From: Phycisphaerales bacterium PN19_bin_20
GTDB taxonomy: Bacteria; Planctomycetota; Phycisphaerae; Phycisphaerales; UBA1924
Reading direction: 5' to 3'
DNA length: 64,000 nucleotides
NCBI GenBank assembly: GCA_021173225.1
Contig: JAJOLK010000001.1
Coordinates: 62,001-126,000 of the forward strand
The notes beneath the pieces are model-generated. The model was not told the origin of the DNA, did not search any database, and worked only from the letters and a program-made list of their open reading frames with translations. The translations under genes and the position numbers were made by a program. The stretch's first letter is position 1, and every line of letters begins with the position of its first letter. This document shows, in pieces, positions 48,882 to 50,714 of the stretch.

Positions 48882-50714
48882 ATGATCGTGTCGCCCAAGC
48901 AAGTCGGCCAGCCCCCGGTGGCGATCATCCTGGCAGCGGGCAAGGGCACGCGCATGGCCAGCGACCTGCCCAAGGTGCTGCACCCGGTCGGCGACCGCCC
49001 GATGTTCTGCAGCGTGGTCGACGCCTGCCGCGCCGCGGGCGCCAAGCGCGTGATCCTGGTCGTGGGTTACAAGCAAGAGCTCGTGCGTGAGGCCGTCGCC
49101 CGGCAAGGGGCAATATGGTCGGCGGGGGTTGAGTTTGCCGTCCAGGATCAGCAGCTTGGCACGGGCCACGCCGTGCTCGCGGCCAAAGACTTGATCGCCG
49201 ACTTGCTCAACCGCGAGCAGCAGCCGGTGTTCGTGCTCGCCGGTGACGGCCCGCTGATCCGCAGCAAGACCCTCCGCGAGCTTCTGGACCGCCACAACGA
49301 GACCGGGGCGGTCGCGACCTTGGCCACCAGCATGATCCCCGACCCGACGGGCTACGGGCGGATCGCCCGCGACGCGCAAGGGCGGTTCGAGGCGATCGTC
49401 GAGCACAAAGAGTGCACCGACGCGCAGCGGCAGATCCGCGAGGTCAACCCCAGCTACTACTGCTTCAACCTACGGGCGCTGTTCGAGGGGCTGGCCCAGG
49501 TCGGTCGCAACGAGCTCAGCGGTGAGTACTATATCACCGACGTGCCGGGGCTGATGCTCCGCCAGGGCAAACGCGTCGAGGTCATCGGTGCCGTGCCCCC
49601 GCAGGACGTGCTGAGCATCAACACCCCGGTGCAACTGGCCGAGGTTGACGCGATCTACCGCGCGCAAGTGGCGCTGGCCGAGCGGGCCAGCAAGGACGAG
49701 CTTGGCGAGCTGCGCGTGTTTGCCGGGCGGCGCGCTATCGAGCTGACCAACCGGGTCTGTGCGCACATCGGCGTGCCGCTGGGCGTGGCGCGCACCGAGC
49801 AGTTCCCCGACGGCGAGCTGCTGGTCCGCATCGAGGAGGACGTCCGCGGGCGTGACTGCTTTGTGGTGCTGGGCACCAGCGAGCCGGTCAACGACAACCT
49901 CATCGAGCTGCTGGTCTTTACCGACTGCCTCCGCCGCGCCAGCGCCAAGCGGATCACGGCGGTGATCCCGTACTTCGGCTACGCCCGCCAGGACCGCAAG
50001 GACGAGGGGCGCGTGCCCATCACCGCCAAGCTGGTGGCCAACCTCATGGCCGCGGCTCGTATCGATCGGGTCATCACGGTGGACCTGCACGCGGCCCAGA
50101 TCCAGGGCTTTTTCGACATCCCGCTGGACCACCTCTCCGCTACGCCGGTCTTCCATGAATACTTCATGTCCATCCGCAAGGACCTGGGCCTTGACACGGG
50201 CGACCTGGTCATGCTCAGCCCTGACGTGGGCAATCTCAAGGTCGCCGAGACCTTCGCCAACATGCTCGGGGCCGAGCTGGCGATCATCAACAAGCGGCGC
50301 CTCAGCGGCAGCGCGGTCGTCACCGAGCGGCTCATCGGCTCGGTCGCGGGCAAGACCGTCATGATGTTCGACGACATGATCGCCACCGGCGGCACCGTCG
50401 CGCAGGCGGCGGCCCTGGCCCGCCAGCACGGGGCCCGGCGCGTGTACGCCGCCGCGACCCACGCCGTACTCGCTGGCGGCGCGCTGCACAAGCTGGCGAC
50501 CCCCGACATCGACCGCGTGATCGTGACCAACACCATCCCGAGCAACCTTGCTCGGCACCCCGGGGTTGACCCCGTGATCGACCGCCTGGCCCCGCTGCGT
50601 CACAAGCTCATCGAGCTGGACGTCGCCGACCTGTTGGGCGAGGCGATCCACCGCATCCACAAGAACCTCTCGATCAGCGCACTGTTCAAGAAGACCGCCG
50701 GGGCCAAGCGCTGA
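48882..50714 (+). CDS. glmU-prs: GlmU uridyltransferase - PRPP synthetase fusion
   Basis: One 610-residue reading frame joins two enzymes. Residues ~13-260 are the GlmU pyrophosphorylase domain (GlcNAc-1-P + UTP to UDP-GlcNAc): LAAGKGTRMASDLPKVLHP, AGDGPLI, PTGYGRI, GEYYITD, SINTPVQLAEV. The left-handed beta-helix acetyltransferase half of GlmU is absent. After ~15 residues, ~277-605 is a complete ribose-phosphate pyrophosphokinase (ribose-5-P + ATP to PRPP): EQFPDGELLVRI, YFGYARQDRK, VDLHAAQIQGFFDIP and the PRPP loop MFDDMIATGGT. The ATG at 48882 is chosen because the frame upstream runs through the tRNA. No stop or start lies at the junction. rplY and pth follow, as in the Bacillus gcaD-prs-ctc-spoVC order. 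Confidence 0.92.
   Translation: MIVSPKQVGQPPVAIILAAGKGTRMASDLPKVLHPVGDRPMFCSVVDACRAAGAKRVILVVGYKQELVREAVARQGAIWSAGVEFAVQDQQLGTGHAVLAAKDLIADLLNREQQPVFVLAGDGPLIRSKTLRELLDRHNETGAVATLATSMIPDPTGYGRIARDAQGRFEAIVEHKECTDAQRQIREVNPSYYCFNLRALFEGLAQVGRNELSGEYYITDVPGLMLRQGKRVEVIGAVPPQDVLSINTPVQLAEVDAIYRAQVALAERASKDELGELRVFAGRRAIELTNRVCAHIGVPLGVARTEQFPDGELLVRIEEDVRGRDCFVVLGTSEPVNDNLIELLVFTDCLRRASAKRITAVIPYFGYARQDRKDEGRVPITAKLVANLMAAARIDRVITVDLHAAQIQGFFDIPLDHLSATPVFHEYFMSIRKDLGLDTGDLVMLSPDVGNLKVAETFANMLGAELAIINKRRLSGSAVVTERLIGSVAGKTVMMFDDMIATGGTVAQAAALARQHGARRVYAAATHAVLAGGALHKLATPDIDRVIVTNTIPSNLARHPGVDPVIDRLAPLRHKLIELDVADLLGEAIHRIHKNLSISALFKKTAGAKR

Follow-up and report, generated by a model that had tools for sequence, protein, structure and literature searches.

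Fusions of enzymes usually join steps of one pathway. The gene order around glmU and prs in Bacillus (B. subtilis), glmU-prs-ctc-pth, places two separate genes side by side, and Listeria and Radiobacillus records likewise carry an annotated glmU followed by a ribose-phosphate diphosphokinase gene. A longer GlmU stands beside prs in one Selenomonadaceae genome and one Anaerosomatales genome, and Rhodopirellula baltica and CA13 have a GlmU reduced to its N-terminal domain (N-only) beside prs. A fusion of MurB and MurC is reported for Verrucomicrobium spinosum, a PVC-group bacterium (PMC4803751). In the window analysed here, a 64,000-nucleotide stretch of DNA from an uncultured Phycisphaerales bacterium, glmU and prs form a single gene.

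This fused glmU(N)::prs gene occupies positions 48882-50714 on the plus strand, running from an ATG at 48882 to a TGA at 50712-50714 with zero internal stops and encoding 610 amino acids. The fused frame is real: as a preliminary description of the locus had proposed, one open frame crosses the junction with no stop, and relatives are fused likewise. The first part (48921-49673, plus strand; amino acids 14-264) is a GlmU-type N-acetylglucosamine-1-phosphate uridylyltransferase domain by Pfam (NTP_transferase, amino acids 14-231, 74 bits), NCBIfam and structure-sequence matches. The NCBIfam GlmU models match amino acids 14-264 only, and the score against bifunctional GlmU (TIGR01173) is 229.5 bits, below the equivalog cut-off of 366.85, with the match ending at profile position 241 of 452. 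The uridylyltransferase domain of that family is present, including GxGTxM..K and the Mg-binding Asp and Asn, and its C-terminal left-handed beta-helix (LbH) acetyltransferase domain is missing, as had also been claimed. A 12-residue linker (49674-49709, plus strand; amino acids 265-276) leads into a class I ribose-phosphate pyrophosphokinase (Prs) domain (49710-50690, plus strand; amino acids 277-603), recognized by Pfam, NCBIfam and fold search. Its N- and C-terminal Prs domains both exceed curated cut-offs (Pfam Pribosyltran_N, amino acids 278-392, 158 bits; Pfam Pribosyl_synth, amino acids 484-603), and NCBIfam Prs PRK01259.1 covers amino acids 276-603 at 369.5 bits against a cut-off of 297.

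Both active-site sets were said to be complete, and the motifs bear this out. The GlmU part has LAAGKGTRM..K31, QLGTGHA, GDGPL, GYGRI, E174, N189 and SINT; the Prs part has the catalytic and PRPP-loop motifs of class I enzymes (FPDGE, YARQDRK, H403, INKRR and DDMIATGGT). Nearly all are invariant in an alignment of the 8 fused homologues. The PRPP loop (amino acids 497-505; 50370-50396) reads DDMIATGGT in genus g1 versus DDMISTAGT in the other fused relatives, the fused protein having A501 in place of S. By sequence, the first part comes closest to solved GlmU N-domain structures and the second to those of Prs enzymes; among the PDB matches listed by Foldseek, all are PRPP synthetases covering the Prs half, which in this fold search shares about 42-43% identity with the enzymes of Thermus and B. 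subtilis. The predicted structure has two confident folded domains joined by a helix (amino acids 249-276; mean pLDDT 80), the end of which lies in the linker, where model confidence is lowest (amino acids 268-273), and runs into the first Prs strand. Because pTM is 0.54, the model gives no reliable relative orientation of the domains. A family-by-family search of the 91%-complete genome (59 contigs) found no full GlmU and no other strong match to Prs or to a GlmU-type uridylyltransferase, leaving the fused protein as the sole Prs and sole strong GlmU-type match in the part of the genome recovered.

Close relatives do not carry only separate glmU and prs genes, the finding that the preliminary description had named as fatal to its proposal: seven relatives are fused and most of the family is not. 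In total, of the 158 family genomes with a match, 8 carry the fused gene, spread over three genera. Four genomes were compared in genus g1, where the window's genome, G445 and G334 are fused and G446 has separate, overlapping genes; G445 and G334 share the start and the fused frame at 84-86% identity, and both halves are under purifying selection there (omega 0.13-0.22). Genus g16 includes three fused species (G276, G420 and G421) and genus g302 two (G489 and G490), with G490 appearing to be a single-contig chromosome (CP054186.1, H1_PLA1). Within-genus pairs over all three genera likewise show this selection on both halves (omega 0.10-0.22, dS 0.47-0.86), so the frame has been maintained as protein-coding both before and after the junction.

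A tRNA-Gln gene (TTG anticodon; 48708-48780, plus strand; ARAGORN) immediately precedes the fused gene. The order tRNA-Gln-glmU-prs is apparently conserved, with seemingly the same tRNA 3' end before glmU in several fused relatives (L082, L085 and L087). Downstream on the same strand are rplY/ctc, encoding ribosomal protein L25 of the TL5 type (50803-51579), which follows prs in the old glmU-prs-ctc-pth order, and pth, encoding peptidyl-tRNA hydrolase (51655-52365). A short FliN/FliM C-ring domain protein (111 amino acids; 52668-53003, plus strand) is encoded near pth.

Stages on the way to this architecture coexist in the lineage: GlmU of full length, GlmU with its helix eroded, N-only GlmU, glmU overlapping prs, an in-frame single stop, and fusion. 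Only 24 of 248 class genomes have a GlmU above the equivalog cut-off; by profile position, GlmU ends at about 290-318 in many class genomes and at about 240-249 in the window's order. In unfused members of the family and order, GlmU is truncated shortly behind its uridylyltransferase domain and prs comes directly next, the prs start overlapping the glmU stop (ATGA, GTGA) in most unfused relatives. In six genomes (G201, G395, G396, G398, G399 and G499) the two genes share a frame with a single stop between them. Clear Phycisphaerales-type glmU-prs loci were also seen on two contigs labelled Chitinophaga pinensis and Cyanobacteria (L143 and L121), and these labels are probably wrong. Since glmU in relatives is already reduced to its N-terminal domain while prs is still its own gene beside it, loss of the acetyltransferase half preceded the fusion and did not depend on it; the earlier statement that Prs replaced this half is not supported.

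The further claim that the cell needs a separate GlcN-1-P acetyltransferase is supported, and the suggested check of the genome for an LbH enzyme yielded a good candidate. Contig C11 encodes an alt_bact_glmU protein that matches TIGR03991 over its full length (amino acids 5-408; 275.4 bits against a cut-off of 225.3), a model of NCBI type hypoth_equivalog, for which the acetyltransferase role is hypothetical. Its LbH half matches the dual sugar-1-phosphate nucleotidylyltransferase structure 5z09, which we take to be Sulfolobus ST0452, an enzyme that also has acetyltransferase activity. The LbH half of TIGR03991 is better conserved than the NTP half (majority fraction 0.74 versus 0.53), and the C11 protein has retained the H272/N293-N295 region, alignable with the ST0452 LbH domain. 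At the protein level, TIGR03991 occurs in 137 of 151 order genomes, and each of the family's other seven fused genomes has it too. No anti-correlation of alt_bact_glmU with full-length GlmU was found in the class (15/24 versus 156/224, Fisher p = 0.49), and descent confounds its excess in the window's order (46/48 versus 125/200 elsewhere, p = 1e-6). In family f19 (for example, G035, G042 and G049), GlmU reaches to about profile position 309-317, and near-complete genomes of this family yielded no TIGR03991 protein.

The presence of LpxA and LpxD in the genome suggests that the cell uses UDP-GlcNAc. These two were weighed as the acetyltransferase, along with a NeuD-like and a WcaF-like LbH protein also encoded in the genome, and set aside. 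Candidates for an archaeal-type GlmM mutase reach 353 bits, below the cut-off of 439. A 1342-amino-acid frame around alt_glmU in G490, considered as a second fusion, is probably a high-GC open-frame artefact. In a transposon screen of Planctopirus limnophila, only the NTP-transferase domain of GlmU was essential (PMC10632474), a result that fits acetylation of GlcN-1-P by another protein. Overall, GlcN-1-P acetylation is probably carried out by the separate alt_bact_glmU protein on C11. The acetyltransferase step of UDP-GlcNAc synthesis in Planctomycetota becomes a testable question, with TIGR03991 as the likely substitute.

We favour, with a probability of about 85%, the reading that the gene encodes a bifunctional protein that arose by fusion of neighbours in an ancient glmU-prs-rplY-pth operon, has two independent heads and receives GlcNAc-1-P from a separate LbH enzyme. 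In the proposed sequence of events, GlmU in this planctomycete lineage would first have lost its C-terminal LbH domain, and with it acetyltransferase activity and trimerisation, leaving a UTP:GlcNAc-1-P uridylyltransferase; the shortened glmU would then have come to overlap or abut prs; and loss of the stop between the genes and of the prs start in a few genera would have produced one polypeptide. The GlmU head would convert GlcNAc-1-P and UTP to UDP-GlcNAc and PPi, the alt_bact_glmU protein on C11 delivering the GlcNAc-1-P, and the Prs head would convert ribose-5-P and ATP to PRPP and AMP. The Prs part would assemble into the usual hexamer, which would bear six GlmU heads. Two independent catalytic heads on one chain are the most likely arrangement, and the main consequence of fusion would be a fixed 1:1 dosage of both enzymes. 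Channelling is unlikely because the two reactions share no intermediate, and the metabolic link through UTP and PRPP proposed earlier is speculation.

A selected coupling of the two pathways, through allosteric cross-talk, a shared UTP/PRPP signal or use of the Prs hexamer as a scaffold, is the strongest of the alternatives and is still improbable. In its scaffold form, which we consider equally doubtful, the Prs hexamer would replace the lost GlmU beta-helix and the heads would co-regulate, setting envelope-sugar synthesis and PRPP supply together. Repeated origin would speak for such a benefit, and the fusion seemingly arose more than once. On a tree of both domains, parsimony requires four changes within the family, although an AU test does not reject a single origin there (p = 0.11). 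In a phylum sample, a fused frame with a different linker was also found in G780 and G758 of f73, another planctomycete family outside the class, in which other members have glmU and prs in the same frame with stops between them. In G780 the frame breaks off within prs and the contig ends shortly afterwards, and in G758 the contig begins inside glmU; because both cases are fragmentary, a second, separate origin in f73 is likely, short of proven. G634 was rejected as a fused case, having stop codons between glmU and prs. Selection is, however, not required to account for recurrence, since genes that overlap can fuse through nothing more than a change of frame or a lost stop, and since the C-terminus of a helix-less GlmU head is free; mere gene overlap predicts recurrence as well. 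The only hint in favour of selected coupling is the g16 linker, which is unchanged between species at the protein level despite diverged synonymous sites. Against this, the g1 linker is poorly conserved (omega 0.6-0.8 in two of three pairs, over only 14 codons), the reactions have no intermediate in common and the fusion is confined to the few family genomes counted above.

Slightly less probable is that two proteins are made anyway, with free Prs released by internal initiation or proteolytic cleavage. An in-frame GTG lies 13 codons ahead of the Prs match in G000, but it is absent from G445, and no junction start with a Shine-Dalgarno-like sequence exists in g1 or g16. At the junction of the window gene, no ATG was found, and the in-frame GTGs nearby have no Shine-Dalgarno-like sequence. 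In G490 (L111), an internal ATG after AGGGAGG has been kept at the old prs start within the fused frame, and this genome may make both the fusion and free Prs. It is very unlikely that either head has lost catalysis and is kept solely for a regulatory or structural role: the altered PRPP loop of g1 could be read in this way, but every other motif of both heads is kept, both halves are under strong constraint and no second Prs or GlmU-type match turned up in the genome. Loss of a stop through faulty assembly or sequencing, conceivable a priori as an indel in a window from a 59-contig genome, is ruled out by the fused relatives, as the junction is also open, with normal codon-level constraint, in separate assemblies of the same genus and two other genera, one of them the single-contig chromosome.

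These results identify GlmU-Prs as a new domain architecture built from known enzymes. It is apparently undescribed, no description having been found in the literature searched, which lay outside subscription journals and protein-database annotation; a single apparent match there proved coincidental. Compared with bifunctional GlmU (TIGR01173), the fused protein has the N-terminal uridylyltransferase domain with all its motifs but lacks the entire C-terminal LbH acetyltransferase domain. It matches class I PRPP synthetases (TIGR01251, PRK01259) over their full length and above cut-offs, but carries at its N-terminus a further 276 residues that form a different enzyme. The glmU-prs operon of Firmicutes (Listeria, Radiobacillus) has the same two genes in the same order, but keeps them unfused and encodes a full-length GlmU. 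Planctomycetes with N-only GlmU beside prs (R. baltica, CA13 and most Phycisphaerales) have the same truncated GlmU and the same neighbour, but as two polypeptides. The reported MurB/MurC fusion also unites two enzymes in a PVC-group bacterium, both of them for envelope precursors, but its partners belong to one pathway (peptidoglycan precursors). GlmU-Prs spans two, joining essential enzymes for the cell-envelope building block UDP-GlcNAc and the nucleotide precursor PRPP, the genes of which stay neighbours in distant phyla.
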